DNA of 36,196 bases, taken from contig CAMSQM010000031.1 in NCBI GenBank assembly GCA_947062675.1, positions 1-36,196 of the forward strand. The letters are read 5' to 3'. Below, one piece after another: positions 14,562 through 36,196 of this stretch. The DNA comes from an uncultured Roseburia sp. Its GTDB lineage: Bacteria; Bacillota; Clostridia; Lachnospirales; Lachnospiraceae. Both the position numbers and the translations under genes were made by a program. The notes beneath the pieces are model-generated. The model was not told the origin of the DNA. It worked only from the letters and a program-made list of their open reading frames with translations, and searched no databases. Each line of letters starts with the position of its first letter. Within the stretch, counting starts at the first letter, position 1.

Positions 14562-16082
14562 TTATTTTGCTTTCCACTCATCAATCTGCTTCTGAAGTTC
14601 TTCACGGATTGTCTCGAGACCAGCTTTCTCAAGGTCGGCATAAAGTGCCGGAACAGCTTCCTGCGGATCTCTTGTACCGGTATAAAGCTCTTTCTTATAG
14701 CGGTCCATAATCAGCGAGCAGTTTGCAATTTCTGTCTCCACGTTCGATCTGTCAAAATTAAATCCGAAGAGAACGGAGTAAGTTGCAGTCTCATTCCACT
14801 CTTCTACCTTCTGCCACTGATCCGGCTCATTCGGAGCTACCGGATACAGGGTGAAATACGTTGCCTGAGAGTAGGTTGCCGGGCTGTAGCAGTTCTCTGT
14901 ACGGGTGATGGTTCCGTCATCGTTCTTCGTGTAATCGGTACCCTCAATACCATATGCGAACAGATTACGCATTGTCTCGTCCGTATTGACAAACTCCAGA
15001 TATTTGAGCGCTTCCGCCTTGTAATTGGAAGCAACGGAGATCGCATTTACAGAACCCAGAATGGATGTTGAGGAATACAGCGGGCCTGCGAACGGCTCTG
15101 CAACACATTCTGCACCGCGGCTCGTTGACCATGATACTTCCGATCCCGGGAATCCCTGTCCGGAAGACACCACGTTCCACTTCGGTCCCTGATCCGTTGT
15201 AGCGGCATCCGGATTGATCAGACCGTCGTTGTACCACTTATGCATATGCGTTAAGATATTCATAATATCTTCCTGCTCAAACACATTCACCACTTTCGTC
15301 TCCGCATCGTCGAAACGCACACCAAGCGCCGGAATTGCAGAAGACTCATAATTCATCAGGAAACCATTGATACCGTCAGAAGCAATGGTCAGCGCATACT
15401 GAGACTCTGTGATCTCACCTGCCTTAATCGCATCCTGTACCTGGTAGAGCACCGGATCCAGCTCATCTACCGAGTGAATATTCTGGTAATCAATGTTATA
15501 CTTCTCAACCACAGCTTTATCCCATACCCAGTACTGTGTCTGCGAAGAATCTTTATAGGTCGGGATGGAATAAATCTTGTCATTCACTTTGACGGCTTCC
15601 CATACCTTCTCCGGAACCAGCTCCGTCAGACCCGGAGCATCAGCAATCATATCCGTCAGATCTGCAAACGCGCCAAGCGTGATCCCTGAGGTATATTTAT
15701 CACCGTTTGTAAACATCAGATCCCAGTACTCACCGGAATTGATCATGGCTGTCACTTTGTCAGACCAGACACCCCAGTCGAGATAGGAAATATCCACACC
15801 GATCCCGATCTTTTCGATCGAATACTCGTTCATCGCCGCGATAACCGCGTCGTTGTTCTGCGGAACACTTCCGATCTGAATCCACTTAAGCATAACCGTC
15901 TCACCATTATTGCCGCCCGTGGACGCCTGGCCGCCTGACTCTGTTCCGGATGCAGCGTTTCCGCCGGTACTTCCTCCGCTGCTATTTCCGGTGTTGCCAC
16001 CGCCTCCGCCGCAGCCTGCGAACAGCGAACCCGCCATCGCAACCGTGAGCAGTGATGCCAGAACTCTTGAAAACTTTTTCAT
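14562..16082 (-). CDS. Sugar ABC transporter substrate-binding lipoprotein
   Basis: The 506-residue family 1 solute-binding protein starts with a lipoprotein signal (lipobox FAGC, Cys-24), then a Gly/Ser/Asn-rich linker to about residue 60. The binding domain follows (LKWIQIGSVPQNNDAV, EYWDLMFTNGD, KIYSIPTYKDSS, AEALKYLEFVNTD) and ends with a DUF3502-type C-terminal region. It resembles LplA-type binding proteins that pair with LplB/LplC-type permeases, which lie directly upstream in the operon. By context it should capture N-glycan fragments outside the cell. It is clearly paralogous to the binding protein at 18059-19555. AAGGGG lies 8 bases before the ATG, and a strong terminator follows. 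Confidence 0.93.
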   Translation of the reverse strand: MKKFSRVLASLLTVAMAGSLFAGCGGGGGNTGNSSGGSTGGNAASGTESGGQASTGGNNGETVMLKWIQIGSVPQNNDAVIAAMNEYSIEKIGIGVDISYLDWGVWSDKVTAMINSGEYWDLMFTNGDKYTSGITLGAFADLTDMIADAPGLTELVPEKVWEAVKVNDKIYSIPTYKDSSQTQYWVWDKAVVEKYNIDYQNIHSVDELDPVLYQVQDAIKAGEITESQYALTIASDGINGFLMNYESSAIPALGVRFDDAETKVVNVFEQEDIMNILTHMHKWYNDGLINPDAATTDQGPKWNVVSSGQGFPGSEVSWSTSRGAECVAEPFAGPLYSSTSILGSVNAISVASNYKAEALKYLEFVNTDETMRNLFAYGIEGTDYTKNDDGTITRTENCYSPATYSQATYFTLYPVAPNEPDQWQKVEEWNETATYSVLFGFNFDRSNVETEIANCSLIMDRYKKELYTGTRDPQEAVPALYADLEKAGLETIREELQKQIDEWKAK

Positions 16083-16108
16083 AATAATTACCCCTTTCTT
16101 TATTTTAT

Positions 16109-17056
16109 CTACTCTTTAACCGACCCGATGGTCAGGCCGGAAACAAAGTACTGCTGGAAAAACGGATATACACAGGCAATCGGCGCCACGATCAGCACTG
16201 CCATCGCCATACGCATCGGCTCCTTGGGCATGTTTGTCGCGTAAGCCGCGATGGAAGCGCCCATGGTATCTGCGTTCTGCGCGAGGAATTCAATATTCTT
16301 CTCAACATTCATCAGAACGGCCTGCAGCGAATACATTTTCGGGTCCGAAATATACATCAGGGACTGAAACCAGTCATTCCAGAACGAAAAGCTTAACAGG
16401 ATTCCGATTGTAGCAAGCAACGGCTTGGAAATCGGAAGTACAATCGTAAAGTAGGTCCGAAGCTGTGAAGCCCCGTCAATCTCCGCAGATTCCAGAATAG
16501 ACTGTGGAATCGTCGTTTTAAAGAATGTACGGCAGATAATGACGTTGAACGACGACACTGTCAGCGGCAGGATCAGAACCCAGATGGTGTCCTTGATATT
16601 CAGCACCGAGGTATATACGTTGTAGGTGGATACAAGTCCTCCTCCGAATACCATCGGGATAAACACGATAATGGAATAGATCCCTTTCAGCTTGAAGTTA
16701 CTTCTGGAGAGCGCATATCCCATGGATGCTGTCAGAAACAGACCGAGCAGCACGCCTCCGACTGTCACGACAATCGATACCAGAAATGCTCTTCCGATCA
16801 TAATGCGGTTATTCCAGAGATACGCATATGCATCCAGCGACCAGGATTTCGGCAGGAAAGAATAACCGATTTCATTGATACTTTCCATGCTCGAAAACGA
16901 AATCACTACGATAAAAACTGCCGGTACGATACAGGTCAGTGCAAGAATCGCAAATATTGCGCTAAAGAGGACGTTCGTCCCCGGTTTGACCCGGTTGATT
17001 TTGGACTCTACCTCCGGTTCTTCCTGTGCTTTCCGTCTTTTTATTTTTTCAGCCAT
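16109..17056 (-). CDS. Carbohydrate ABC transporter permease (LplC/YtcP type)
   Basis: The 315-residue membrane protein has six predicted helices and the binding-protein-dependent permease loop (EAAxxDG-type), here ESAEIDGASQLRTYFTIVLPISKP, which docks on the ATPase. The C-terminal VSGLTIGSVKE ending is typical of the LplC/YtcP branch of the carbohydrate-uptake family 1 permeases. It forms the second half of the membrane channel with the gene just upstream, 15 bases away. The ATG at 17056 is preferred over a GTG at 17065 because GGGGAGG lies 8 bases before it. No ATP-binding subunit gene is found in the window, so an MsmK-like ATPase encoded elsewhere is inferred. Confidence 0.93.
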   Translation of the reverse strand: MAEKIKRRKAQEEPEVESKINRVKPGTNVLFSAIFAILALTCIVPAVFIVVISFSSMESINEIGYSFLPKSWSLDAYAYLWNNRIMIGRAFLVSIVVTVGGVLLGLFLTASMGYALSRSNFKLKGIYSIIVFIPMVFGGGLVSTYNVYTSVLNIKDTIWVLILPLTVSSFNVIICRTFFKTTIPQSILESAEIDGASQLRTYFTIVLPISKPLLATIGILLSFSFWNDWFQSLMYISDPKMYSLQAVLMNVEKNIEFLAQNADTMGASIAAYATNMPKEPMRMAMAVLIVAPIACVYPFFQQYFVSGLTIGSVKE

Positions 17057-17071
17057 TTCTTCCACCTCCCC

Positions 17072-18031
17072 TTAAATAATCGCACTGTCATTGTCGACCT
17101 TCTTCACAATCCAGTTGCTCAGAAGAATCAGACCGCAGCCTACCACTGACTGTAAGAATGCCGCCGCGGAACCCATGTTCGGATTCGGCTGTGTCTTGAT
17201 CATCTTATAGATAAACACGTCGATCGTCTCTGTAACGGTATACAGGGAATCAGAACCCTTGGTTACCTGATAGAAGAGACCGAAATCACTTCTGACCAGA
17301 CCGCCCATCGCGAGAATGAACATCATGATAATCACGGATTTCATCAGCGGGAGCGTGATTTTTGTCGCCTGCTGGAACTTTGTCGCCCCGTCGATCATCG
17401 CCGCCTCATACAGCGTATTGTCGATACCGGTGATCGTCGCGAGATACACCACCATGCCGTAACCCATGCCCTTCCACTGACTTAAGAAAATCAGGATTGC
17501 CGGCCAGTACTTCGACTCCTGATACCAGCTCACCGGATCCTTGCCCATATTCACAAGAACCGTGTTGATCAGACCTTTATCCGGGCTTAAAAATGCGAAC
17601 ACAAAATAGGTGACAACGACCCATGACATAAAGTAAGGCAGGAACATCAGCGTCTGGCAGGTCTTTCCGTAGCGCTTGCTGTAAAGCTGGCTCATCATCA
17701 GGGACAGGCAGACCGGAATCACAATCCCGAGGATAATGAACACAATATTATACAGAAGCGTCAGCTTCACAACCAGTGCGCCGGAACCGGATGTAAACAG
17801 GAATTCAAAGTTCTTAAATCCGGTAAATTCGCTCTTTAACAGATTGTAAAAGAAACTCTTCGTACCGTCAATCAGCTTATAGTTTTTAAATGCCATCAGG
17901 ATACCAAACATCGGAAAGTAGCAGAAGCAGATATACCATATCACTGTAGGAAGCGTCAGTAATGTCAGCTCCGTATCCCGCTTCGCCCACCTGTCCCTTT
18001 TCTTCGTTTTTGGTAAATTTCGTTTCTCCAT
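17072..18031 (-). CDS. Carbohydrate ABC transporter permease (LplB type)
   Basis: The 319-residue protein has six predicted helices and the EAAMIDGATKFQQATKITLPLMK coupling loop of sugar importer permeases. N-terminal sequence TLLTLPTVIWYICFCYFPMFGILMAFKNY is characteristic of the LplB branch, whose relatives import complex oligosaccharides. A basic cytoplasmic tail precedes the first helix. The ATG at 18031 is preferred to a GTG at 18037 because AAGGAGG sits 7 bases before it. It lies 27 bases after the stop of the upstream binding protein and pairs with the next permease. Confidence 0.93.
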   Translation of the reverse strand: MEKRNLPKTKKRDRWAKRDTELTLLTLPTVIWYICFCYFPMFGILMAFKNYKLIDGTKSFFYNLLKSEFTGFKNFEFLFTSGSGALVVKLTLLYNIVFIILGIVIPVCLSLMMSQLYSKRYGKTCQTLMFLPYFMSWVVVTYFVFAFLSPDKGLINTVLVNMGKDPVSWYQESKYWPAILIFLSQWKGMGYGMVVYLATITGIDNTLYEAAMIDGATKFQQATKITLPLMKSVIIMMFILAMGGLVRSDFGLFYQVTKGSDSLYTVTETIDVFIYKMIKTQPNPNMGSAAAFLQSVVGCGLILLSNWIVKKVDNDSAII

Positions 18032-18058
18032 TTTCACCCTCCTTTTTTTTCAGAAACC

Positions 18059-19555
18059 TTACGGCCTTTTACGGAGACGATCCCATGCATCGATCTGTCT
18101 CTGCATCTCGTCAATCACGTCCTGCATCCCACACCCGTAGAGCTTTTCATTTAACATTGGGATATATACCTCCGGATCCACACTGCCTGTGTAGAGCGCC
18201 GGGCCATATTCGTCGAGAACCATCCTGAAATGAAAAAGCTGACCGGACACTCTCCCCGCATCAAAATCAAAGCCAAACGTGGGCGCCTCCTCCGATTCCC
18301 GGTTGTATTTCTCAAATGCATCCCACTTGTCAGCCGGATCCGTCTCAGGTACCCAGGTAGAAAAGAGACCGCCCTGAACATAATAGGGCACTGCATAACC
18401 GCTCTCCTCTGAAAGACGGACCTTGCAGTCATAAATATACTTTTTGCCGGATGCCTCCGCGATCTCCTCCTCCGGCACAGGCACTTTTGTGTAATGCACA
18501 TTTTCCAGTCCGTAATTCAGCAGATTCCGCAGATACAGGTCCGTATTGACCAGATTCAGAAATTCGACAGCCGCTTCGGGATGCGGGCAGTCTTTTGAGA
18601 TCACTGTCAGCGCCCCCCGCGCCGATGCGGTGGTGATCTGCGTCTCCATAATGGGTGACGTTACCACCTCATATCCCAGTGCACTGCTCCACACTGTCTC
18701 TGCATACGGCTGTCCGTCCCCTTTTGTGACAAACCGCTTTACCCTCCTGTCATCACGTGCCACCGCCGCATCGCTGTTAATGTACCCGGCCTCAAAATAC
18801 CGCCGCATGGTCCTAAGCGTTGACTGCATGCGCTCCGTCTCAAACACGTTTCTGACAGTCAGTGTCCCGTCTCCGTATTCTATCCCGACAGGATCCGTAA
18901 TCTTATCCATATAGGTCGGAGCGCTGAATTCACGGGTAAGATAGAGCGGGACCACCTCCGGTTCCTTCTCTGCGATAAGCGCCAGCCACGGCTCCAGATC
19001 TTCCAGCGTGTGAAGCTCCTCAAACGGGATGTCATATTTCTCCACATACTCCTTTGTGAATACCCACATCGGCATACTGCCAAGCTCTTTCTGGGAGGGA
19101 ACCCCGTAGATCTTTCCGTCGATAGTCGCCGCTTCCCAGAAGCGCTCATCTATTCCGGAAAGCAGCCCTGTTCCGTACTCTCCCAGCAGATCGTCAAGCG
19201 GAAGAAGCGCTCCCTTCTGCGCAATCTCCAGGTAATCATTCGCCCAGGAGCTCGAAAAAGCAAGATCCCAGTGTGCTCCTGTGCTGATAATACTGCGCAT
19301 CTTTGTGTTGTAATCACTCCAGTTCACCGGAATAATCTCCACCGTCACACCGATCTTTTCCGATATGTAATCGTTAACCTGCTCCTCCACAATCTTCCCG
19401 TCCTGCTGTACTGTACCAATCTGATACCAGATCAGATGAACCGGCTCCGTCCGTTTCCCTGTCTCTGTCCTTCTCCCGGTACATTTCACCACCAGAAATA
19501 ACAGGCCCGGCAACAGCACTACCAGAAACCAGAGTCTGTTCCAGCTGCGCTTCAT
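18059..19555 (-). CDS. Second, divergent sugar substrate-binding protein
   Basis: The 498-residue protein shares the plan of the other binding protein: HLIWYQIGTVQQDG, NWSDYNTKMRSIISTGAHWDLAF, GKIYGVPSQKE, AAVEFLNLVNTD, and a DUF3502-like C-terminus ending WDR. Its N-terminus is a basic, hydrophobic stretch with a cysteine at residue 25, but the residue before it is lysine, which breaks the lipobox. It may be held by an uncleaved signal anchor or atypically lipidated. There is no Gly/Ser linker. It is first in the transporter cluster, preceded by a 172-base AT-rich gap with a 12-bp direct repeat. GGAGG lies 4 bases before the ATG. Having two binding proteins for one permease pair suggests two ligand sizes or a sensing role. 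Confidence 0.9.
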   Translation of the reverse strand: MKRSWNRLWFLVVLLPGLLFLVVKCTGRRTETGKRTEPVHLIWYQIGTVQQDGKIVEEQVNDYISEKIGVTVEIIPVNWSDYNTKMRSIISTGAHWDLAFSSSWANDYLEIAQKGALLPLDDLLGEYGTGLLSGIDERFWEAATIDGKIYGVPSQKELGSMPMWVFTKEYVEKYDIPFEELHTLEDLEPWLALIAEKEPEVVPLYLTREFSAPTYMDKITDPVGIEYGDGTLTVRNVFETERMQSTLRTMRRYFEAGYINSDAAVARDDRRVKRFVTKGDGQPYAETVWSSALGYEVVTSPIMETQITTASARGALTVISKDCPHPEAAVEFLNLVNTDLYLRNLLNYGLENVHYTKVPVPEEEIAEASGKKYIYDCKVRLSEESGYAVPYYVQGGLFSTWVPETDPADKWDAFEKYNRESEEAPTFGFDFDAGRVSGQLFHFRMVLDEYGPALYTGSVDPEVYIPMLNEKLYGCGMQDVIDEMQRQIDAWDRLRKRP

Positions 19556-19727
19556 CCTTCCTCCCGTTTGTGCAATTTAACCAGCATTCCCCTAATGGAT
19601 ATATGTATTTTAACAATTCTGCCGGAACTATCCTAGTTTACAATTTATAGATTTTATGTACTTTTTATTGTTTTATGGAAAATTTTATAATTCGTTCGTT
19701 AATTCGTTCACTTTATGCCGGAAATAC
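19556..19727. promoter_or_regulatory. AT-rich control region of the transporter genes with direct repeats
   Basis: This gap holds the 12-bp direct repeat TAATTCGTTCGT/TAATTCGTTCAC (19688-19699 and 19700-19711, 10 of 12 identical) and two copies of TGCCGGAA (19620-19627, 19716-19723). On the minus strand a weak promoter TTGTAA, 17 bases, AGAATT is the best found. Direct repeats are the usual binding pattern of AraC-type regulators, and the YesN-type regulator gene ends at 19728. Binding is inferred. Confidence 0.45.
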
Positions 19728-21314
19728 CTAATAATTTTTCATTTCGCGCAGCGCAGCCGGCGATACCCCGTAGCTCTGCTTGAATTTCCGGTAAAAATAA
19801 CTTGTGTCAGAATAGCCCACCTCGCGGGCAATATCATTGATGCGCAGATTCGTCGTCAGAATCAGATTTTTTGCGATCCCGTTTCTCACATTATTCAGAT
19901 ACTGGGAAAACGGGCAGCCGACTTCTTTCTGGAAAATCTGTCCCAGATAGGAAGTGTTCATGTGATACTTGTACGCCAGCGTCTTTAAGTTCATATCATT
20001 CTGATAATTGTTCTTCACTTCCGCTATAATCTGGCGCACGACCGGCGTGTATTGCATATTTTCCATGTTCATCCAGGAAATGATGTCCGAGATTTCCGAC
20101 AGGAGCATCGTTCTGATCGCAGAAATATCTTCTGCCTGCCAGATCTCACCGATCACATCGTAGAGCTGTCTGCCCTCGTCCCTGATGTTGTATTCCAGCC
20201 GGATCTCCCTCAGAATCAGCGCGATCCGCGCCGCAATCTGGTAGAGCACATCCACAGAGACCTCCTTCTGGATGTTGTTGATAAACAGCCCCTCCACATA
20301 CTCCCCTGCTCCTGCAATATCTTTTCTTAAAATCAGGCCCGCAAACTTCTCTTTATCGATCACCACATCCGTGTCAGTGCGGTTCAGAAGCTTCTCCTCG
20401 TTCATACAGCTCCCATACCCCTCAATCAGAAGGTATCGCTGCATTTTTTCCACGGTCCCGTACACTTCAGGCAGGCTGGTCAGATCGCAGAAAACATTGG
20501 AAACCGTCAGAAAGCTGTACACCCCGAGCTCAATTTCCATCTCGTTCTGCAGATCCGCAAACCAGCCCCCGGACGCCTCCCCCTCACCTGATACGGCAGA
20601 TTCCTGCTCCCCGGCGGCGGACGCTCTCCACCCTGAAGCTGCAGGATCTTCCTCTTTGCACAGACACAAAAGCAACAGAAAATTACTGCCTCCCAGATGC
20701 CATACTTTAAGCTCCTCACCGGACTTTCGGGAGGAAATATAGCGTGTGACGTCCGTCAGCCTGTACGCTCCAAGTGTCGACAGATCTATCTTCATAACCG
20801 CAGCACGGTAACGGCCCGGCGGAATCCCGGGAACGATATTCTGAAGATACCGGCGCCGCTCCTCCGGACTAAAGCCTCCCTCGAGAAAACACTGGAATTC
20901 CATCTTCCTGTCAATCTGCGAGTCCTGTTCCTCATCCATTTTTTTCAGCTTCTCCACACAGCCCGTAAGCGCCCGGATCAGTTCTTCCTCGTTGATGGGT
21001 TTTAAAATATAGTCTTCCACATCGAGGCGGACCGCGGCACGCGCATACTCAAACTCACTGTAACCTGACAGAATCACAAAACGCATTCTGGAATCGGTCT
21101 TCCGCACCTGCTCCAGCAGGCCGATCCCGTCCAGGAGCGGCATACTGACGTCGGTCACGAGAATATCCACACGCTCCTGCCCCAGCAGTTCCAGTGCCTC
21201 CTCACCGTTGTGAGCCCTGTAAAACACAGTAAGCCCCAGCGCTTCCCAGTCAATAATATTTTCCAGCCCCCGGAGAATAAGCTCTTCATCCTCCACCAGC
21301 ATCACTTTTCTCAT
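19728..21314 (-). CDS. YesN-type response regulator (REC + AraC HTH)
   Basis: The 528-residue protein has an N-terminal receiver domain: acidic pair in LVEDEE, phospho-acceptor Asp-55 in ILVTDVSMPLLDG, and the lysine in DYILKPI. A long middle region follows, with a Gly/Ser/Ala-rich insert at about residues 225-255, and then a C-terminal AraC-type double helix-turn-helix (about 430-528: LAYKYHMNTSYLGQIFQKEVG, INDIAREVGYSDTSYFYRKFK). This is the YesN type that pairs with YesM kinases to control carbohydrate uptake genes. The ATG at 21314 has GAGG 6 bases upstream and overlaps the kinase 3' end by 29 bases, so the two are coupled. Its target is probably the adjacent transporter promoter. Confidence 0.94.
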   Translation of the reverse strand: MRKVMLVEDEELILRGLENIIDWEALGLTVFYRAHNGEEALELLGQERVDILVTDVSMPLLDGIGLLEQVRKTDSRMRFVILSGYSEFEYARAAVRLDVEDYILKPINEEELIRALTGCVEKLKKMDEEQDSQIDRKMEFQCFLEGGFSPEERRRYLQNIVPGIPPGRYRAAVMKIDLSTLGAYRLTDVTRYISSRKSGEELKVWHLGGSNFLLLLCLCKEEDPAASGWRASAAGEQESAVSGEGEASGGWFADLQNEMEIELGVYSFLTVSNVFCDLTSLPEVYGTVEKMQRYLLIEGYGSCMNEEKLLNRTDTDVVIDKEKFAGLILRKDIAGAGEYVEGLFINNIQKEVSVDVLYQIAARIALILREIRLEYNIRDEGRQLYDVIGEIWQAEDISAIRTMLLSEISDIISWMNMENMQYTPVVRQIIAEVKNNYQNDMNLKTLAYKYHMNTSYLGQIFQKEVGCPFSQYLNNVRNGIAKNLILTTNLRINDIAREVGYSDTSYFYRKFKQSYGVSPAALREMKNY

Positions 21315-23076
21315 CGCATTCCTCGTCTCTATGTTTTTCCGGCCGCACACCGGCTTCCGGTGTCATGGCGCCTTCCGGCAGGGTAAACTTAAGCGTCACG
21401 GTTATCCCGCCTGTCTCATTTTCACTCAGAGCGAGCCCGCAGCAGGCCCCGTATACCGCCTTCAGACGGCGGTTGACATTTCCGAGTCCCATCGATTTGT
21501 GGATATCAAGCTCATCCGCCCTGAGCGCGGCATTTTTCTCTGCCATCTCCTGCGCGTCCATCCCCCGCCCGTTGTCGGCGACCTCAATACAGAGAAGTTC
21601 TCCTTCACGGCGAACGAGAATACCGACGTGATTGTCATCTGCCTCCAGGCGGATTCCATGTGCAAAATAATTCTCCAGAACCGGCTGGACGACAAACTTG
21701 ATCACCGGCACCTGCAGATAGCCGTCCCCGCAGCGGACCTCCCATGTAAATTTATCGTGGTAGCGGTACTCAAACAGCTCCATATATTTTTTTGCATAGT
21801 GCAGCTCCTGTGCAAGGGTGATCACGTCCGCGGCTTTCAGCTGGCTCTGAAAAAGCGCCGCCATGCTGTAGAGCATCCGCCCGACTTCCCTGTCTCCGTT
21901 GCAGATCGCCTTCATTCGGATGGCTTCCAGCGTATTGTAAAGGAAATGAGGATTAATCTGGCTCTGGAGCGCCGCCATCTCGGCATTTTTCTGTTCTATC
22001 TCGGCAAGATAACTTTTCTTAATGTAAAGATCCAGATCCCTGCACATCCGGTTAAAACTATCCGCAATGATATCCAGCTCATCCGACCTCTCCCCGTGCG
22101 CAATCCGGATCCCCAGGTCTCCCTGCTTGACCCTCTCCATCCCGTCGACGATCGTCTCCAGCCGCCGCATAATCCCTGAGAGATAGAGATAAATCCCCGT
22201 TTCCCCCGCGACGACCAGGAACAGACTGACCGCCAGGACAGCCAGAAAGCTCCAGCCGGAGATCCTCCCCGCATCCCGCTTCCCCAGAATGGTTATCACA
22301 CGGTAGGCGCCTGCCGCTTCCTCCCTGGCATGGACCCCCTCTTCTTTCTCAAGATCGCTGAGACTGCGCAGGGAGTTCCACACAATTCCGGAATCAGACA
22401 GAAACACTGCCTCATTGTCGCTGTCACACACGATAATCTGTGCCTTCTCATAAAGACCGGCAATATCAGAAAAACGCTGGCCGGAAAATCCCAGCTCCAT
22501 CCAGCCGATCTCTTTCAGGGAAACCGGATCAAGCAGCTTTTTCTGAAAACAGACCGCCTCCCCGCTTCCATCCCTCCCCGCTTCCTCCGCGGCCAGGACT
22601 GCCTGCTGGCTTGTCCGCTTTTCCCTGTGGCTGGCTCCGTCCGCCTGAAAACAGGTCAGGATCTCCTGCTGCAGACTATATAAGCGGATATTCACCAGCT
22701 GGCTGTTGCTCGCAAAAATCGAGGAAAAAAAATCTTCCAGCCCGAAATAAGAGACAGACGAACTGTCTGCGTAGCTGTCAAGCCGGAACCGGATATAATC
22801 TTCCACATCATCGCATATATAGTGCCGCAGTTCTTCCAGATCGTTGTGTGAATTATAAAGAATATTGTGAACGTAATCCGCATCGCCGGCACACTGCAGG
22901 ATATAATCCCGCGCCTCCGTCCCCGCCATTCCCATATATTCCAGATTTGTCTCCCGCACCTGCCGTTTTGACGCAGAAAGCGAATACGCCGCCAGAAGTC
23001 CCACCGCACACACCAGCACCAGCGTGTAGACAAGCTGCAGCTTCCGGAATAACTGTCTGGAGTCCCTTTTCATCAT
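21286..23076 (-). CDS. YesM-type sensor histidine kinase
   Basis: The 596-residue kinase has a first membrane helix at about residues 15-32, an extracellular sensor region of about 240 residues, a second helix at about 275-300, a HAMP domain (RRLETIVDGMERVKQGDLGI), a coiled segment and a HisKA_7TM-less His_kinase box: SQINPHFLYNTLEAIRMKA, where the histidine is the phospho-acceptor. The ATP-binding part has VLENYFAHG, VADNGRGM and MGLGNVNRRL. YesM-type kinases sense oligosaccharides or a loaded binding protein. AGGGG precedes two adjacent ATG codons at 23076 and 23073. It overlaps its response regulator and lies between the glycosidase genes and the transporter genes. Confidence 0.94.
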   Translation of the reverse strand: MMKRDSRQLFRKLQLVYTLVLVCAVGLLAAYSLSASKRQVRETNLEYMGMAGTEARDYILQCAGDADYVHNILYNSHNDLEELRHYICDDVEDYIRFRLDSYADSSSVSYFGLEDFFSSIFASNSQLVNIRLYSLQQEILTCFQADGASHREKRTSQQAVLAAEEAGRDGSGEAVCFQKKLLDPVSLKEIGWMELGFSGQRFSDIAGLYEKAQIIVCDSDNEAVFLSDSGIVWNSLRSLSDLEKEEGVHAREEAAGAYRVITILGKRDAGRISGWSFLAVLAVSLFLVVAGETGIYLYLSGIMRRLETIVDGMERVKQGDLGIRIAHGERSDELDIIADSFNRMCRDLDLYIKKSYLAEIEQKNAEMAALQSQINPHFLYNTLEAIRMKAICNGDREVGRMLYSMAALFQSQLKAADVITLAQELHYAKKYMELFEYRYHDKFTWEVRCGDGYLQVPVIKFVVQPVLENYFAHGIRLEADDNHVGILVRREGELLCIEVADNGRGMDAQEMAEKNAALRADELDIHKSMGLGNVNRRLKAVYGACCGLALSENETGGITVTLKFTLPEGAMTPEAGVRPEKHRDEECDEKSDAGGG

Positions 23077-23112
23077 TTCCCCTCAGAATTTATCATCTGC
23101 GGACGGTATGAT

Positions 23113-26317: not shown

Positions 26318-26323
26318 GTCCAT

Positions 26324-26442
26324 TTCCCTCCTGAAACACTTATTTTTCTGTTCTTCTATCCTATTCGATCTGAGGGAAACGGGCAACCATCAAAATTCTA
26401 CTTTTACTGGAAAAATGGTATGTTGCATCATTGTCCTGCTGT
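26324..26442 (-). promoter_or_regulatory. Intergenic gap before the first GH38 gene with candidate promoter
   Basis: The minus strand carries TTGCCC (26381-26386), 17 bases, TAGGAT (26358-26363), about 35-40 bases before the GH38 ATG. This could be an internal promoter of the locus. No terminator hairpin is seen after the GH85 gene. Confidence 0.35.
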
Positions 26443-29400: not shown

Positions 29401-29454
29401 CATTCCTCCCGCAAACGCGCGTCGGAACATCAGTTCCAGTTTCTTTCGTTTCAT
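26443..29454 (-). CDS. Endo-beta-N-acetylglucosaminidase, GH85 (surface lipoprotein)
   Basis: The 1003-residue protein cuts the chitobiose core of N-glycans, leaving one GlcNAc on the protein. A lipoprotein signal (MTAC, Cys-29) and an acidic linker anchor it outside the cell. The GH85 domain (about residues 90-570) carries the hallmark GFDGWFINQES, with Asn-256 orienting the oxazoline intermediate and Glu-258 as acid/base, plus LQYVDLLVYWGG and PERWDLFEN stretches. Then come a beta-sandwich carbohydrate domain, a fibronectin/PKD-like domain (about 735-815, VYGVTMTAKNADG) and an F5/8-type (CBM32-like) domain (about 825-955). The end is a 17-residue tandem repeat rich in Ala, Gly and Thr-Glu. 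It resembles EndoD-type enzymes. The ATG at 29454 fits the GGGAG spacing; 29460 is possible. Confidence 0.95.
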   Translation of the reverse strand: MKRKKLELMFRRAFAGGMSVAMLLGMTACQNTKSQEEPAKSSTESGTPEISEDQGASDEGAADETAGAGNYLITEENENEEVVMNDQPESSYWFPEQLLEWNPDEDKDLAYNVSTVPLAERADREKLQTVNSTQNKDTQVMAINIMNSSTSGNSPHGLNRFKANTFGYLQYVDLLVYWGGSSGEGLIVAPSPDVTDMAHKNGVKVIGTCFFPQAAHGGKLEWLDTFLTKNEDGSFPIIAKLAEVAHTYGFDGWFINQESEGDDTAKLTKAHADLMQEFIAAFKAENPDLELVYYDSMTVDGEMDWQNALTDKNAAYMVDAEGNAMSDSMFLNFWWTEDKLADQELLKASAEKAAEIGADPYDLYAGMDVQSNGYMTPERWDLFENPEGGTYTSLGLYCPSWAWSTASDPNDMEKKENVLWVNSKGDPSVAVENTDPTGWRGVSTYVVERTALTSLPFSTNFNVGNGYNFFIHGEMVSNLDWNNRSLADVLPTYRWMMENEGGNKLTPSFYMADAYYGGNSLRLFGNMDAGAATKIKLYSASLPVEEGTAFTTTAKASQETALELILTLEDGSEITAAGDTKVGADWTTVNYDISEAAGKTVTAISYRIVSDAADDAYQLLLGNISIGDVASVGTGTVSDVKVDGSEFDEDAMLSGVRLSWSVDSPAEYYEIFRINQDGTKSLLGASNNTCFYINTLPRTDDTNKSVFEVVPVNKALEEGTGAQVTMDWPNNSLPKSDFTADRTLIAPGMAVAFESLASQNTTDVEWTFEGGEPATSTDKAPSVTYAQAGVYGVTMTAKNADGEAEKSESGYIVVADAAAGDLALLSQGMKTEATAFVNSNEAPEFAVDGDVTKKWCATGTPPHEITIDLGGVKTISGVTISHAEAGGESPDMNTKSYVISVSEDGTEFTDVKTVTRNTLDVSKDTFAPVNAQYVKISIVKPTQGSDTAARIYEIEVYGVDAAVDAAAGAGAAAGTEGVAPEGTEALDAAAGTEALVPEGTEAQ
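26446..26552 (-). repeat. 51-bp tandem repeat in the 3' end of the GH85 gene
   Basis: Two adjacent 51-bp units start at about 26451 and 26502 on the plus strand. They encode AAAGTEGVAPEGTEALD and AAAGTEALVPEGTEAQ, so the period is 17 residues and in frame. The composition suggests a flexible tail. Confidence 0.75.
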
Positions 29455-29474
29455 AAACATGCTCCCTTCTTATA

Positions 29475-30365
29475 TTATCTATCGCCGGACCGGAGTTCCA
29501 GTTCCAGCATACCCAGCCTGACTGCTCCAAGGATACCCGGATCCTCTCCGAGCGCAGGCGGGATAATATACTCATCGATCTTTTCACCGAGCATCTCATG
29601 ATGCACATACCCGTTTAACAGCTCTCTCACACGGCTGCGCACCATTGGAAACAGCTGTTCCTGGTGCATCACACCGCCCCAGAGAATAATTTTCTGCGGG
29701 GAATATGTCACAATATAATCCGCGACAGCCTGAGCGATATAGTACGCCTCCATTTCCCAGACCTTATCGCAGCCCGCCAGCTCTGCAGCCGGCTTTCCCC
29801 AGCGCTCCCCGATCGCGGGACCGCTCGCAAGCCCTTCCATACAGTTCGGGTGGAACGGACAGCGCCCTTTATAGTTATCCTCCGGATGTCTGGCCAGGAG
29901 AATATGTCCCGCCTCGGGGTGTACCAGTCCGTGCAGCAGCCTGCCGTTGCTATACACACCCACACCCACACCGGTCCCGACCGTAATGTAAATTGCGCAG
30001 TCGCAGCCCTTTGCCGCCCCCCAGGTCACCTCGCCAAGGATTGCGCCGTTTACATCCGTATCAAATCCGACCGGCACTTTCAGCGCATTTTTAAAATATC
30101 CCACAATATCGAAATGTTCCCAGCCGGCCTTGGGGGTTTTCGTGATATAACCGTAGGTCGCTGAACCACGGTCCAGATCCAGCGGCCCGAAACACCCGAT
30201 GCCCAGCGCTTCAATCTCATATTTCTGAAAAAATGCGGCAATTTCACCCAGCGTCTCCTCCGGCCTTCCGGTCGGCAGCGATATTCTGTCTTTTAACTGC
30301 CCGCTCTCATCCGACACAGCGCAGACCATCTTGGTCCCGCCGGCTTCAATTCCTCCTATCAGCAT
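29475..30365 (-). CDS. ROK family sugar kinase (mannokinase/fructokinase type)
   Basis: The 296-residue kinase begins with the ROK phosphate loop GGIEAGGTK, carries VGTGVGVGV in the second half of the ATP site, and has the zinc-binding cluster built from HPEAGH and CPFHPNCMEG. The glutamate in place of the first aspartate of the loop, the GCFGPLDLD and YGYITKTPKAGW stretches, and the overall layout match the ScrK/GmuE group, which phosphorylates fructose or mannose. In this locus, conversion of mannose freed by GH38 to mannose-6-phosphate is the likely job; GlcNAc kinase is the alternative. The ATG at 30365 has AAGGAGG 8 bases upstream. The gene start overlaps the GH20 stop by 7 bases. The GH85 start lies 20 bases beyond its stop. 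Confidence 0.92.
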   Translation of the reverse strand: MLIGGIEAGGTKMVCAVSDESGQLKDRISLPTGRPEETLGEIAAFFQKYEIEALGIGCFGPLDLDRGSATYGYITKTPKAGWEHFDIVGYFKNALKVPVGFDTDVNGAILGEVTWGAAKGCDCAIYITVGTGVGVGVYSNGRLLHGLVHPEAGHILLARHPEDNYKGRCPFHPNCMEGLASGPAIGERWGKPAAELAGCDKVWEMEAYYIAQAVADYIVTYSPQKIILWGGVMHQEQLFPMVRSRVRELLNGYVHHEMLGEKIDEYIIPPALGEDPGILGAVRLGMLELELRSGDR

Positions 30366-32263
30366 GAACATTCCCTCCTTTTCAGGCGCTCTCTCCCGCG
30401 CAGCAGATCGGCATACCAGAACACAATCTTCCCGATACGGGCCAGATCAGATTCCCTGCTCGTCGCACGCCACTGTTCCTTATAGTGCATAAACCAGACC
30501 TCAAGCCGCTCCGCAAGCCCGCAGGCCTCCTCCGGCTCTCCCTGCCTGCGTTTTGCCAGAAACACGCCGATATCATTCCAGATCCGGATGCCGTCGATCG
30601 TGACATCGCATGCCCCCGTCAGTCCGCGTGTGCTGCTGTCCATATGCCCGGCTGTACCCCTGATCTGCTCTGCAAGCCCGGCAAGCGCACGGTTTGCCGT
30701 CTCCACGCGGTTTTCCCCGTCTTTTACGGCCGGTGTCTGCAGCAGCGCCTGAAATACGCCTTTTTCGTCGAGGTCCCGCAGCACCTCCTCCGGCTCCCCG
30801 AGCTCCTCCACCTCATAATACAGAACCGCATCATGCCAGCTGAACAGACAGTGCTCCGGAATCTGCGCCAGCTGATTCACCAGCGCCTCCGAGGTATCGT
30901 GGTACTCCACGCGCGCAATCTGGCGGTTCATCTCCTCAAACGGGATCTCTCCGGAGTTCCACGAAAACGCGGCCCCGTAGATCAGCCCCGGAACAGAATA
31001 CTCCGGATGGTTGATATGCCCGAAATCCCCCCAGTCCGTATTCAGAATCCCGATCGCCCCGTATTTGCGGGCATAAGAGCACATCCTCACAATATTCTGA
31101 TATGAATTCCCGATCAGGTTCATCCACTGGTTCCAGCCGGCAACACCGGGACACAGGTACTGCTTTACCCCCGTCTCAGCCATCACACGGCTCTCATAAT
31201 CGCGCTGATCAGGCGCATATCCCCAGGTCAGGCAGACCACTTCTTCCGGAAGTTCACGGACAAGCTCCGGCTCCCCGCAGATCACATCACCCCAGAACAT
31301 CGGCTGCTTTCCGTTCTCCACCAGAAACGTACAGAGCTCCTTCACATAATCAATATAGATGCGGTGAACTCCTTTTTCATCCGCCAGCGCTTTCGCCTTA
31401 CCTTTTCCCAGATCAAATGTCTCATCCGCGCAGAGATTGAATTTGTCTGAGGAAAACAGCGCCATGTACTCTCCGATCATACCTTTTATCAGCGGCAGCA
31501 CTCTCCCATCGGCCACATTTACCGTGTGATGGCGCATCCGGTCCAGAAGTGAAAACGGCTGCCGGCAGGATTCCTCCAGCTCGCACAAATCCCCGTGCGT
31601 CTTCGTTGAGAGCAGCATATACAGGTGCCCGAAGCTGGAGAGCGACGGGACAAGCTCCACACAGCGCTCTCTGCAGTAACGGTCAAGTTCCAGAATCTCC
31701 TCCGCCGTCAGCGGCGTCTCCTCCCTCCACATCTCGGAAAGCCCCTGAAAAAGATATGTGTGCTCGATATAGAGCTGGAATTCGTTGATCTTATAGCGGC
31801 AGAGACGGTCCACGGTCCGTTTCAGCTGTTCCAGGGTCAGGACACGCCCCCTCGTCTGATCCAGATAATAGCCCCTGTGCAGAAGTTCCGGCCTGTCGGC
31901 GACTGCGGCACACCCGATCACACCGCCGCTCTGCTCCACCATCTGGCAGAATGTCTGTACGGCATAGAGCACTCCCGCGTCATCCCCGCCGGAAAGCCTG
32001 ACTCCGGTCTCCTCCACGAGAAGCGTATATTCCTGCGCGGCAAGCGATGTGTCCCTTACAAGGAAAATATCCCCTTCCGCCGGCTCCCCCGCCGTGACTG
32101 CGGGAGTCATACCGCAGAAATCCCCGATACACTTTTTTAATATTCCGGCAAAAATTATTCCATTTTCCCGGACGGCCGGCGAAAGCACGATCCTGCTCCG
32201 GTAATGCAGGCAAAAAGTCCCCGCCCTGTTCTCAAACTCCCTCGGTCTGGGTATCAGATACAT
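30359..32263 (-). CDS. Beta-N-acetylhexosaminidase, GH20
   Basis: The 634-residue enzyme has no signal peptide and should act in the cytoplasm. A small alpha/beta domain (about residues 1-125) precedes a beta/alpha barrel. HRGYYLDQTRGRV opens the barrel. FNLCADETFDLGKG carries the catalytic Asp-280/Glu-281 pair of GH20, in which the aspartate orients the substrate acetamido group for assisted catalysis. TWGYAPDQ and FSWNSGE aromatic stretches line the pocket. It resembles the cytoplasmic GH20C type of Streptococcus, which removes terminal GlcNAc or GalNAc. In this locus, trimming antennary GlcNAc or splitting GlcNAc-containing ends is likely. The start at 32263 has AAAGGA 8 bases upstream and two further SD-like copies behind it. 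Confidence 0.93.
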   Translation of the reverse strand: MYLIPRPREFENRAGTFCLHYRSRIVLSPAVRENGIIFAGILKKCIGDFCGMTPAVTAGEPAEGDIFLVRDTSLAAQEYTLLVEETGVRLSGGDDAGVLYAVQTFCQMVEQSGGVIGCAAVADRPELLHRGYYLDQTRGRVLTLEQLKRTVDRLCRYKINEFQLYIEHTYLFQGLSEMWREETPLTAEEILELDRYCRERCVELVPSLSSFGHLYMLLSTKTHGDLCELEESCRQPFSLLDRMRHHTVNVADGRVLPLIKGMIGEYMALFSSDKFNLCADETFDLGKGKAKALADEKGVHRIYIDYVKELCTFLVENGKQPMFWGDVICGEPELVRELPEEVVCLTWGYAPDQRDYESRVMAETGVKQYLCPGVAGWNQWMNLIGNSYQNIVRMCSYARKYGAIGILNTDWGDFGHINHPEYSVPGLIYGAAFSWNSGEIPFEEMNRQIARVEYHDTSEALVNQLAQIPEHCLFSWHDAVLYYEVEELGEPEEVLRDLDEKGVFQALLQTPAVKDGENRVETANRALAGLAEQIRGTAGHMDSSTRGLTGACDVTIDGIRIWNDIGVFLAKRRQGEPEEACGLAERLEVWFMHYKEQWRATSRESDLARIGKIVFWYADLLRGRERLKRRECSC

Positions 32264-32369: not shown

Positions 32370-35300
32370 CTATACGATTTTTACAGTGATTACTTCGTAT
32401 GGTTTTAATGTCACCGCAATCCTGTTTTCCACAACCTGTGCCTCGCTCTCCGCCTCTTCCAGCAGATTGCACAGATACGCTTTCCCAAACGGCAGATTTA
32501 CAGTCAGCTCAGCCTTCGTCAGTGCATTCTCTGACTCGTACAGACGCAGCACGGTTCCGCTCCCGTCCTCCGCCGCCTTGATCGTCTCGAGAACCACATT
32601 GGACTGATTCACCGACGCCACCGTCCGGCTCTCTCCGGGCCGGCCGCTATTTACCGCGCGCGCCGGCTGGTTGAGCAGATAAGCCTCCCGCACCGTGCCG
32701 GCCTCCCGCCAGCCTTCCGCGTGCGGATAGAGCGCGTAGGTGAAGAAATGCTCTTCCTGATCGGTCTCCGGATTCGGCTCAATACCGGATTTGATCAAAG
32801 TCAGGGCGATATTGCCGTCCTTCACGGAATGACCGTATTTACAGTCATTGAGCAGACTGACGCCGTAATGCCCCTCGGACACATCCATCCATTTCTGTCC
32901 GCAGCTCTCAAACCGCGCTTTATCCCAGCTCGTGTTCTGATGTGTCTTGCGCGTCAGATTGCCAAACTGAATCTCGAAAGTCGCCTCATCCGTGTGAACA
33001 TCCACCGGAAAATGCACTTTCAGGAGATGCTGATGCTCCTTCCAGTCGACATACGTCTCAAACTCAATCCGTCTGCTCTGTGCATAAAAATGAATCTTCT
33101 GGCGGATCAGGGAATTGCTGATCTCCCTGGTAAGTGCAAGCGTTGCCCGAACCGGTCCGTTTTCGGTCCATCTGAACTCTGTCAGCTGCGTCGCATCCCA
33201 GAACTTCTCGGTATAATAGATATCAATATCCCAGTTATCGTAGTAGATCGGCTTATCCTCATACATACGCATCAGGTTCGCGCGCTCACCCTCTTTTAAG
33301 ATCTCACGGTCATTTTCCTTGTCATAAAGACGCACAAACAGCCCGCTCTCATCCAGCTGCACTGTGTAATACGGCGTCTCAAGCAGATGGTCATTCACCA
33401 GCGTAAACGGTGACGGTATCTCCTGTGCCTTCGCCTTTGCATACGTCCTGTACCCCTTGGAGGGAAGCCCCTTCAGATATACAACCGCTCCCTCATCCGT
33501 CTTCTGTACCGGATAGAGTGTACCGTCGGAATCGGCAAGCGCTTCCGCCCAGTCGCCGTCGAGCTTTACAATATCATTCCGCAGGACTCCCGTCGTATTA
33601 AATACGGTTACTCCGTCCCCGTCTCCCGCGAGAACTTCCATGCGCTCCCCGCTTAAAGCCCGGCACTCCGCTTCAATCCTCTCATACTCCTCCTTCGTCA
33701 CCTCATAGACTTCCCTGATACTTGATCCCGGAAGAATATCGTGGAACTGATTCAGCAGAACATTTTTCCACAGTGCATCAAGCCGCTCTGCCGGATAGGG
33801 AAGCTTCCCCTCCGCCATCACTGATAAAAGCTCCAGATCCATCAGCCCCAGCTCGGATCTGCGGTTGGAGCGCTTATTGCGCGCCATGGAAGTATACGTG
33901 CCGCGGTGATACTCAAAATACAGCTCTCCGACCCAGACCGGCAGCCTCCGGTTATCCTTCACACGCTCATTCAGTTCATCGAAAAACGTGCGCGCAAACG
34001 CCTGACGGACCATCGGAATCCCGCGGACCCCTTTCTCCATGCGCTTTGAGGTCTCCAGCATCACGCGGTCCGGACCGCCGCCGCCGTCCCCGTAACCGTA
34101 GGAGATCAGAATATCATTGTTGATATCCTTGTTCTGATAGCGCATCCATCCTCCCATAATTGCGTCGGGATGCAGCCTTCCATTGTACGTTGTAAAGAAA
34201 TTGCTCACCGGCTGGCCGACATCAAGCGTGGTCACCAGATGCGTCAGAATCTCTGTCCCGTCAATCCCCCGCCAGAGCATCGTGTCATACGGCACTTTGT
34301 TAAACTGATTCCACGCCAGCTTGGTCGTCATAAAATAATCAATCCCGCACTTCTTCATAATCTGCGGCAGTGCGCCGGAGTAGCCAAACACATCCGGCAG
34401 CCAGAGTATCCGGTTGTCGACACCGAATTCCTCTTTAAAAAACCGCTTCCCGTGCAGGAACTGGCGCACCAGGGACTCTCCGGATGTGAGATTGCAGTCA
34501 GCCTCCACCCACATGCCGCCCTCGGGTTCCCAGCGTCCTTCCCGCACACGCTCTTTTACCTTCGCATACAGCTCCGGATAGCGCTCCTTCAGGAATGCAT
34601 AAAGCTGGGGCTGGCTCGACATAAAACGATACCCCGGGTATTCCTCCATCAGCTTTAAGACAGTCGCAAAACTCCGCGACACCTTCTCCCGCGTCTGAGC
34701 CACGGTCCACCACCACGCCACATCAATGTGCGTATGACCGATACAGGTTGCAATCACGTCCCTGCAGCCGGCCATATCCTCGTACAGCGCTTTTCCGATA
34801 TAGGCGAGCGCTGCCTCAAGAGACGCGTAAAATTCCTCCGAGTACGGAGTACGCAGATCCAGGAGATTGACAGTTTCATTTAAGACCCTCTCAATCTCTT
34901 TCCTGTTCCTATCCTCCGCATCCATGCGCGGAAATGCTGCCAGCGGAACCCACAGATCATAATAGAGCTCCTCGATCCGTGCGTCCACCTCGCACATTTC
35001 CGCGATCAGATTAAACTCCGTGTGAAGTATGCCGGTGTAGGCCTGCAGCTCTATCTGCAGCGTCTCCCCCGCCTGCGCCTCCCGGGCAAGCAGCACTTCC
35101 CTGTGGTTCATGTCGATTCCCTGAACCGCCCCGCCGTTCACAAACAACAGAAACTGGGGGTTTTTCGCATCGTCGCACTCGTCAATCTGAGTGCGGACCT
35201 GCATCCACATGCACTTCCCCGCCAGTTCCTCCGGCACCGTATACGACGTCTTAAACCAGTAATGACGGTCCTTGCCGTACCAGTGCATCGTCCTGCTGTC

Positions 35301-35480
35301 AAACTCCTGCCATGCTTCCGTCGTATTTCCGCCATCTGATGCGCGGGATGCCTCCGCATCCTCCGGCGTAATAAAATTCCCCTCTTTGTACTCCCATTTT
35401 TCGATCGGGAAGCGCTGTCTCACCTTAAGCTTCTTTAACTCGTCACAGATTCCCGCGACTCTTTTGTCCAGAAAATCCAT
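32370..35480 (-). CDS. Alpha-mannosidase, GH38 (second copy)
   Basis: The 1036-residue cytoplasmic GH38 enzyme has the zinc ligands in GHTHIDVAWWW (His-251, Asp-253), nucleophile Asp-363 in WLPDVFGYSG, EADCNLTSGES, and NQFHDILPGSSI, followed by large C-terminal beta domains. It is similar in plan to the GH38 at 23177-26317, with many shared blocks (WNQYN/WNQFN, SYGYGDGGGG, EYHRGTYTSxAxNKR, LLNDCKYGHxVKD), but differs in the N-terminal domain. The difference around the Trp cluster after the HxD motif (WLW against WWW) hints at different linkage preference. AGGAGG lies 6 bases before the ATG. It follows the GH130 gene by 35 bases and leads into a hairpin before GH20. Confidence 0.96.
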   Translation of the reverse strand: MDFLDKRVAGICDELKKLKVRQRFPIEKWEYKEGNFITPEDAEASRASDGGNTTEAWQEFDSRTMHWYGKDRHYWFKTSYTVPEELAGKCMWMQVRTQIDECDDAKNPQFLLFVNGGAVQGIDMNHREVLLAREAQAGETLQIELQAYTGILHTEFNLIAEMCEVDARIEELYYDLWVPLAAFPRMDAEDRNRKEIERVLNETVNLLDLRTPYSEEFYASLEAALAYIGKALYEDMAGCRDVIATCIGHTHIDVAWWWTVAQTREKVSRSFATVLKLMEEYPGYRFMSSQPQLYAFLKERYPELYAKVKERVREGRWEPEGGMWVEADCNLTSGESLVRQFLHGKRFFKEEFGVDNRILWLPDVFGYSGALPQIMKKCGIDYFMTTKLAWNQFNKVPYDTMLWRGIDGTEILTHLVTTLDVGQPVSNFFTTYNGRLHPDAIMGGWMRYQNKDINNDILISYGYGDGGGGPDRVMLETSKRMEKGVRGIPMVRQAFARTFFDELNERVKDNRRLPVWVGELYFEYHRGTYTSMARNKRSNRRSELGLMDLELLSVMAEGKLPYPAERLDALWKNVLLNQFHDILPGSSIREVYEVTKEEYERIEAECRALSGERMEVLAGDGDGVTVFNTTGVLRNDIVKLDGDWAEALADSDGTLYPVQKTDEGAVVYLKGLPSKGYRTYAKAKAQEIPSPFTLVNDHLLETPYYTVQLDESGLFVRLYDKENDREILKEGERANLMRMYEDKPIYYDNWDIDIYYTEKFWDATQLTEFRWTENGPVRATLALTREISNSLIRQKIHFYAQSRRIEFETYVDWKEHQHLLKVHFPVDVHTDEATFEIQFGNLTRKTHQNTSWDKARFESCGQKWMDVSEGHYGVSLLNDCKYGHSVKDGNIALTLIKSGIEPNPETDQEEHFFTYALYPHAEGWREAGTVREAYLLNQPARAVNSGRPGESRTVASVNQSNVVLETIKAAEDGSGTVLRLYESENALTKAELTVNLPFGKAYLCNLLEEAESEAQVVENRIAVTLKPYEVITVKIV

Positions 35481-35515
35481 CGTACCCTCCTGTGTCTGTA
35501 ACTTCTGACTGTAAC

Positions 35516-36196
35516 TTAAACGTGATGTTCTTTCAGATAAGATAATATCTCATCCACAGTGGAAAAACAAAGCCCTGTCACCGTATCCGCGCACCCGTAG
35601 TAGATTGCGATTCTGCCCGTATCCGCATCTGTCAGCGCCGCGCACGGAAATACCACATTCGGAACATCTCCCACGCACTCATAGTATTCCTGGGGCGCAA
35701 GAATATAATCCCTCGAGCGGTACAGAACCTTCCAGGGTTCCTCGAGGTCCAGAAGCGCCGCGCCCATGCGGTACACAAATCCGTTACAGGTGGTGATAAC
35801 GCCATGATAGATCAGCAGCCATCCCTCGTCCGTCTCGATCGGTATCGGCCCCGGCCCCACTTTCGTGCACTGCCACGCGGAGAGATCCCCCGCAATCGGG
35901 CTCATCACATGACGGTGTCTTCCCCAGAACTCCATATCCCGGCTCTGGCTTATAAAAATATCTCCAAACGGTGTGTGCCCGTTATCGCTCGGCCGGCTTA
36001 ACATCATATACATTCCCTGAATCTTCCGCGGAAAAAGCACTCCGTTCCGGTTACAGGGGAGAAACGCGTTCTCAAGCTGCACAAACTTCTTAAAATCATA
36101 GGTATAGGCAACGCCAATTGTAGGTCCATGATAACCGTTGCACCAGGTCACATAATACCGGTCCTCCAGAAAACAGACTCTCGGGTCATAGCGGTA
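35516..36196 (-). CDS. GH130 mannoside phosphorylase, 5' end outside the window
   Basis: The visible 226 residues run in one open frame from the right edge to the stop at 35516, so the start is off the window; the ATG-like GTG at 36151 is internal. Blocks expected for GH130 are [64 protein letters not shown], and a C-terminal NVVFPCA and [10 protein letters not shown]130 enzymes phosphorolyse beta-mannosides with inversion, releasing mannose-1-phosphate. Members in N-glycan loci act on Man-beta-1,4-GlcNAc, which is what trimming of an ENGase-released glycan leaves. The substrate here is inferred from neighbours. It lies 35 bases upstream of the second GH38 gene. Confidence 0.9.

Follow-up and report, generated by a model that had tools for sequence, protein, structure and literature searches.

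A predicted N-glycan utilization operon of apparently mosaic origin in an uncultured Roseburia species

Introduction

The enzymatic breakdown of N-glycans has been described for members of the genera Bacteroides, Bifidobacterium, and Streptococcus (reviewed in PMC10154615). For the genus Roseburia, a Gram-positive polysaccharide utilization locus (gpPUL) referred to as Ros-10 was reported by Sheridan et al. 2016 (PMC5320581) in Roseburia intestinalis XB6B4 and was predicted to serve the use of N-linked mucus glycans. Its listed content is GH3, GH38, GH85, GH125, GH130, GH20, CE1, an ATP-binding cassette (ABC) transporter, an MFS transporter, two LacI regulators, and two NagC regulators (PMC5320581). 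Here we describe an operon encoded on contig CAMSQM010000031.1 of the uncultured Roseburia sp. assembly GCA_947062675.1. The entire contig, 36,196 bases in length and designated C31, constitutes the window that was analyzed. On the basis of its closest characterized relatives, the operon probably functions in N-glycan utilization in this gut bacterium of the Lachnospiraceae. Whereas a locus of this type has already been predicted in Roseburia, what seems to be new here is an apparent mosaic of two sources and an additional solute-binding protein (SBP) encoded beside the sensor kinase.

Searches of the literature revealed, among the titles and abstract openings listed, no biochemical study of a Lachnospiraceae N-glycan locus. 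A further organism of interest is Marvinbryantia formatexigens, likewise a member of the Lachnospiraceae. Its consumption of host-derived N-glycans has been remarked on (PMC6385246). In Streptococcus pneumoniae the CPL as listed does not include the genes for EndoD and the ABC components (PMC5215778, PMC7075642), NgtS binds Man5GlcNAc (PMC5215778), ScrK is the suggested mannose kinase (PMC7075642), and the N-glycan genes are controlled by TCS07, the ligand of which is given as unknown (PMC7075642). Finally, in Ruminiclostridium cellulolyticum CuaD is described as the SBP partner of a histidine kinase (HK) and response regulator (RR) pair (PMC10384115).

The window locus shares with Ros-10 its genus, its predicted N-linked glycan substrates, and genes for GH85, GH38, GH130, GH20, and an ABC transporter; LacI regulators belong to the same likeness. 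The row given for Ros-10 further includes GH125, GH3, and CE1 together with an MFS transporter and a pair of NagC regulators but neither an HK nor an RR, whereas a second GH38 and a contiguous HK, RR, and SBP (hereafter SBP1) are found in the window, the comparison being one of listed gene content (PMC5320581). With S. pneumoniae the locus has in common GH85, GH38, GH20, a ROK kinase, an importer of the NgtS type, and two-component regulation of N-glycan use (PMC5215778, PMC7075642). There, trimming is accomplished by GH92 and GH125, and neither family occurs among the 19 window proteins scanned. The window contains a GH130, a term with no occurrence in PMC5215778. The pneumococcal N-glycan regulon is scattered over the genome, whereas it is clustered in several other streptococci (PMC7075642). 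The initial annotation of the window drew the parallel to S. pneumoniae and had a second GH38 replacing the trimming by GH92 and GH125. The parallel is a fair one, although it left out that the pneumococcus likewise possesses GH38, GH20, ROK, NgtS, and TCS07 (PMC5215778, PMC7075642), and Ros-10, which includes a GH130, is the nearer precedent (PMC5320581). The high-mannose operon of Bifidobacterium longum also has several GH38 genes and acts on a glycan left unprocessed until the endoglycosidase cleaves it; it differs in having three GH38 genes and a GH125, and the text available does not tie GH130 to it (PMC10154615). The CuaDSR system resembles the window locus in placing an additional SBP gene next to those for an HK and a YesN-type RR while using another SBP for transport, but it senses cellobiose, and CuaD keeps its lipoprotein signal, unlike SBP1 (PMC10384115).

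Results and Discussion

Organization of the operon

The assembly comprises 2,996,907 bases in 87 contigs and is 94.86% complete. Nineteen window proteins were scanned for families with Pfam, and the negatives for ABC ATPase, GH76, GH92, GH99, and GH125 refer to these. From the right contig end, the minus strand carries, in order, genes for GH130, GH38A, GH20, ROK, GH85, GH38B, HK, RR, SBP1, permease A (PermA), permease B (PermB), and SBP2 (Table 1), with intergenic gaps from GH130 to SBP2 of -65 to +172 bases. Relevant Pfam E-values are 7.5e-84 for GH85, 9.2e-93 and 1.7e-87 for the GH38 N-terminal domains, 2.5e-60 for GH130, 6.9e-60 for ROK, 9.3e-12 and 1.2e-16 for the catalytic and N-terminal domains of GH20, 3.8e-22 for His_kinase, and 3e-24 for Response_reg, the latter accompanied by an AraC-type helix-turn-helix (HTH) motif. 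SBP families and two BPD_transp_1 domains were also matched. GH85, GH38, GH130, and GH20 thus stand side by side with a transporter and a regulator, as in a Gram-positive N-glycan gpPUL of the Ros-10 kind. All of the genes named in the initial annotation are present on the minus strand where it placed them; the truncation of GH130 by the contig end and the second SBP had gone unmentioned. That the grouping of these genes exceeds chance follows from locus L011, in which the same order is observed.

No ABC ATPase was found among the scanned proteins. GH92 is absent from them, as is GH125, with the caveat that the operon is cut off at its upstream end. No NCBIfam model scored above cut-off for the nine proteins tried. 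The terminator-like hairpin located 3' of SBP2 is a consensus match only, and 22 such sites were listed versus 11.8 expected in the 15.8 kb scanned (14200-30000). A GT2 gene (13263-14348) begins 213 bases past SBP2, beyond the hairpin, and has its own promoter-like site, again a consensus match only. Misbinning of the contig was considered and is weakened as an explanation: AroE, encoded on the same contig, was matched in 33 of 35 same-genus genomes, and the best matches are 66-82% identical.

The enzymes

The GH130 fragment retains 226 of approximately 329 residues, the latter being the length in L011. It is identical to UhgbMP (4udg_A) at 170 of 223 positions (76%), and the equivalents of Arg 150, Arg 168, and Lys 212, which we take to be the three basic phosphate-binding residues of UhgbMP, are conserved. 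UhgbMP is a mannoside phosphorylase acting on the N-glycan core, in which Asp 104 is catalytic and the adjacent tyrosine has a role (PMC4599007). The fragment keeps an aspartate at that place with a tyrosine just before it. Specificity for Man-GlcNAc is thus likely, although the fragment is likewise near a mannooligosaccharide phosphorylase (5ayd, 2.4e-110). The N-terminus of GH130 is missing in the window; signal peptides were sought by eye and by hydropathy in GH38A, GH38B, GH20, and ROK, and none was seen in these four.

The GH85 enzyme matches 3fhq at 9.9e-128 and EndoD (2w91) at 3.9e-82. The former structure is, we assume, that of EndoA, an enzyme specific for untrimmed high-mannose substrates, and the scores lean toward such substrates for the window enzyme. 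The Asn-x-Glu motif of GH85 is catalytic, and the corresponding Asn 258-Gln 259-Glu 260 is invariant in 10 of 10 aligned sequences. GH85 is a probable surface lipoprotein, because its N-terminal motif ends in a cysteine and because of homologues such as that in L013; the mean hydropathy of its N-terminus, 1.22, is not outstanding (1.37 for ROK).

For both GH38 enzymes the best matches in the PDB are Ams1 chains. They are 41% identical to one another and fall into two separate clades in the tree, that of GH38A being common to LacI-type Lachnospiraceae loci. Translation of GH38B probably begins at an internal ATG, some 23 codons into the annotated frame, in agreement with the open reading frames of its relatives. 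Asp 280-Glu 281 of GH20 is invariant in 8 of 8 aligned sequences. The best match for ROK is a solved putative fructokinase (Table 1).

The importer and a candidate sensor subunit

SBP2 matched three PDB sequences at 1e-39 to 2e-38, the best being NgtS (5swa/5swb). These three were also matched by SBP1, with values of 1.3e-47 to 3.6e-47, in addition to one weak match (1.3e-05). The make-up of an NgtS-type importer, namely an NgtS-like SBP and two permeases, is present, and the importer SBP is a putative binder of ManGlcNAc oligosaccharides. By eye, the lipobox of SBP2 is canonical. The SBP1 and SBP2 types separate at 100/99 in a tree of 28 rows, a split that is partly to be expected, as the labels were assigned by best match to the window's pair.

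As in CuaDSR, an SBP gene adjoins those for an HK and a YesN-type RR, apart from the transport SBP, and SBP1 might thus sense its ligand through the kinase in the manner of CuaD. We tentatively propose, as a possibility somewhat short of probable, that SBP1 is a former N-glycan transport protein turned membrane-tethered receptor, presenting the YesM-like kinase with released N-glycan, and, jointly, that the operon arose from the fusion of a LacI-controlled locus with a YesMN-controlled one, the importer of the first having been replaced. An alternative that is also quite possible, if hardly to be called probable, is that SBP1 is simply a second transport binding protein widening the size range of imported glycans, with the kinase sensing alone. 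In line with this, TCS07 of the pneumococcus is presented as having two components (PMC7075642), and SBP1-clade proteins are the only SBPs matched in the fetched stretches of loci L054, L044, and L048. For this reason SBP1 could still serve transport, and its clade may have begun as, or may remain, one of transport proteins, a point that counts against the sensor role. The location of SBP1, on the other hand, argues against a mere transport function: it lies directly 3' of HK-RR in the window, L011, L025, L091, and L092, and 3' of RR in L093, the stretch of which starts at RR. In L015, a single case, SBP1 is gone together with the kinase and the receiver domain, whereas the permeases and SBP2 are kept. 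The YesN-like regulator of L015 (16137-17294) is judged to lack a receiver domain because the match begins only at query residue 141, and its stretch contains no partner kinase. A genome search with SBP2 gave one match in the L015 genome versus 2 to 16 in seven others. The lipobox likewise speaks against the transport alternative. In the window SBP1 a lysine precedes the cysteine, and in L011 there is no cysteine at that place, whereas by eye the lipobox is kept in nine of nine other members of the clade (L025, L044, L048, L049, L051, L054, L091, L092, and L093).

Distribution and mosaic origin

Sixty genomes (the host itself, 35 of the same genus, and 24 of the same order), many of which are incomplete, were searched for GH85, and 4 gave a match, the host included. 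The only same-genus match is G004 (contamination 7), and that of G048 consists of the C-terminal domain alone. The genome bearing locus L029 is taken to be G004 because the place and score of AroE are the same. Within the fetched flanks of 47 GH85 loci, which total less than 22 kb for 18 of them, GH130 occurs in 20, GH38 in 28, GH20 in 9, ROK in 16, an SBP in 26, a permease in 26, an HK in 7, and an RR in 8; GH85, GH130, and GH38 are found together in 19. The whole gene order of the window is held by L011, including SBP2 after PermB. In L015 and L011 an oppositely oriented LacI gene lies upstream of GH130, separated from it in L011 by a DUF2752 gene, and LacI kin at least 50% identical are carried by L015 and 10 more loci. 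A script search for near-perfect CG-centered palindromes, the LacI-type operators, returned none upstream of the divergent LacI in nine loci or across the window. A GH85 with internal stop codons in the matched stretch was observed in a same-genus genome, at L029 (10001-12931) and L006; this is possibly a broken gene or an artifact of the match ends. In L044 (Candidatus Arthromitus, SFB-turkey) and L048 (Clostridium gasigenes), GH85 accompanies permeases, GH38, an SBP1-type SBP, and ROK in a third arrangement.

The window operon was compared with two sets of loci. The first consists of 17 LacI-type loci, that is, the 19 with GH85, GH130, and GH38 less L011 and L015. The second consists of three genomes with an RR-SBP1-PermA-PermB-SBP2 block (the YesMN block). 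GH38B and HK come before the block in L091 and L092 and likewise in L014, there on a separate contig end. The window's GH130 is 75-81% identical to its LacI-type counterparts (16 of 17) and has no equivalent beside the YesMN block, and GH38A is 73-74% identical to those of LacI-type loci. GH85, in contrast, is 58-62% identical to the LacI type versus 78-80% to the YesMN type. The corresponding values are 54-57% (12 of 17) versus 87-90% for PermA and 35-39% (16 of 17) versus 77-80% for SBP2, and HK (58-66%) and RR (62-67%) have counterparts in the YesMN type only. In a GH85 tree from which four rows with internal stops were omitted, the window sequence groups with L011, L015, L012, L013, and L014 at 100/100. 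The rpoB identities to the host, obtained for 9 of 10 genomes, are 83-85% for hosts of the YesMN type and 80% for that of L015. The host is 85% (AroE) and 96% (rpoB) identical to the L011 genome and 81% and 95% to that of L029, and yet the GH85 of L029 is only 58% identical. The locus, therefore, does not follow the host.

On this evidence the operon was probably assembled from two older loci, with GH130 and GH38A being LacI-like and GH85, GH38B, HK, RR, SBP1, the permeases, and SBP2 being YesMN-like. Its origin is most simply explained by a fusion combined with transfer. Two genes fit it poorly: ROK is only 26-29% identical to LacI-type sequences (9 of 17) and GH20 50-59% (8 of 17), and neither was found beside the YesMN block. 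Near relatives of both occur in L011 and, for ROK, also in L015. It is conceivable, although rather unlikely, that the locus is an ancient whole, later split or depleted of genes in other genera, and that no fusion took place. Such a whole may have split in the genomes of L012-L014, where GH130 and GH38A were sought only beside the block. ROK and GH20 are left unexplained by the two locus types, and L025 carries HK-RR-SBP1, LacI, permeases, SBP2, GH130, and GH85 on a single stretch. Note that the permeases, SBP2, and GH85 of L025 are as distant from those of the window as the LacI-type ones are. The sharp division of identities from gene to gene, as in PermA, argues against an ancient whole, as does the close kinship of GH130 with the LacI type and its absence beside the YesMN block.

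A proposed route for N-glycan use

The sequence itself shows gene content and order, kinship, and the conservation of some catalytic residues; the individual activities, the sequence of steps, and the role of the sensor in the scheme proposed here are inferred from relatives. At the surface, GH85 would act on N-glycans of the high-mannose or hybrid type, cleaving between the paired GlcNAc residues of the core. The Man(n)GlcNAc thereby set free would be handed by SBP2 to PermA and PermB, in conjunction with an ATPase whose gene lies elsewhere. In the cytoplasm, any terminal GlcNAc would be taken off by GH20 and the alpha-mannoses by the two GH38 enzymes, leaving Man-beta1,4-GlcNAc for GH130 to phosphorolyze to mannose-1-phosphate and GlcNAc. 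Free mannose would be phosphorylated by the ROK kinase. SBP1, HK, and RR would together act as a three-component sensor, inducing the operon in the presence of released glycan, and a second control may be exerted, as in the relatives, by a divergent LacI regulator possibly encoded beyond the contig end.

Several observations weigh against parts of this scheme. Solved enzymes resemble GH20 only distantly (7.1e-13 alone and 7.9e-24 as a profile), and plain high-mannose glycans do not require it. GH38 enzymes also act on other alpha-mannosides. A LacI orthologue, by which the contig might be extended, was sought in the assembly and none was found, the best match being 24% identical. A main role of the operon in the use of alpha-mannan from fungi or yeast, or of different alpha-mannosides, to which GH85 would be incidental, is most improbable, for although yeast mannan use also involves GH38 enzymes (PMC10154615), GH85 lies inside the operon, its GH130 is of the UhgbMP kind, and no GH76, GH99, or GH92 occurs among the 19 proteins, the only part of the genome searched for these.

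Release, import, and cytoplasmic breakdown of N-glycans, as put forward in the initial annotation, are well supported by the closest characterized relatives. Its full route to mannose phosphates requires genes outside the window, and one PMI-family and one glucosamine-isomerase-family match were found in the genome. The suggestion of plant-glycoprotein foraging is not supported: no fucosidase or xylosidase family was found among the window proteins scanned, and, according to a 2023 review, activity on plant N-glycans had been reported for no GH18 or GH85. A spore-forming host is consistent with the one Spo0A_C match in the genome, and it is no more than consistent.

Other features of the contig

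Just downstream of the operon (12748-14348, minus strand) are encoded a GtrA-family membrane protein and the GT2 protein, which is PgfS/ArnC-like below cut-offs; these are likely a lipid-linked sugar transferase pair. A 772-residue open reading frame with no Pfam match (1447-3765, minus strand) adjoins a MATE transporter gene (3788-5188). A tRNA match in Rfam (1-56, minus strand) is cut by the left contig end, and ARAGORN listed none.

Table 1. Coordinates of the operon genes and the downstream hairpin within the window.
Feature	Coordinates	Strand	Basis
GH130, likely mannosyl-GlcNAc phosphorylase, 5' end cut by contig end	35516..36196	-	PF04041; identity to UhgbMP 4udg_A; Asp104 kept
GH38A, predicted alpha-mannosidase, no hydrophobic N-terminus	32370..35480	-	Pfam; Ams1-like (PDB sequence search); hydropathy; tree
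GH20, predicted hexosaminidase, probably cytoplasmic, divergent	30359..32263	-	Pfam; PDB match; Asp280-Glu281 conserved
ROK, predicted sugar kinase, near solved putative fructokinase 1xc3	29475..30371	-	Pfam; E 1.5e-107 to 1xc3/3lm9
GH85, predicted endo-beta-N-acetylglucosaminidase; also carries GH85_C, PKD, and F5/8-C domains; probably a lipoprotein at the surface	26443..29460	-	Pfam; PDB match; N258-Q259-E260
GH38B, predicted alpha-mannosidase, second GH38 clade	23177..26386	-	Pfam; PDB match; tree
HK, YesM-like sensor histidine kinase; contains HAMP and two hydrophobic stretches, around residues 15 and 272	21286..23076	-	Pfam; hydropathy
RR, YesN-like response regulator: receiver and AraC-type HTH	19728..21350	-	Pfam
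SBP1, NgtS-like, degenerate lipobox, adjoins HK-RR; proposed sensor subunit	18059..19555	-	Pfam; PDB match; tree; lipobox by eye
PermA, ABC permease	17072..18037	-	Pfam
PermB, ABC permease	16109..17065	-	Pfam
SBP2, NgtS-like lipoprotein; proposed transport binding protein	14562..16082	-	Pfam; PDB match; lipobox; tree
Terminator-like hairpin 3' of SBP2	14495..14510	-	Consensus match only

Conclusions

The locus described here provides a compact set of testable enzymes. The arrangement of HK, RR, and SBP1 offers a concrete hypothesis for the question of the TCS07-type ligand left open in PMC7075642. If the proposed role of SBP1 is true, this protein would be a direct candidate for the ligand-sensing step of N-glycan two-component systems.

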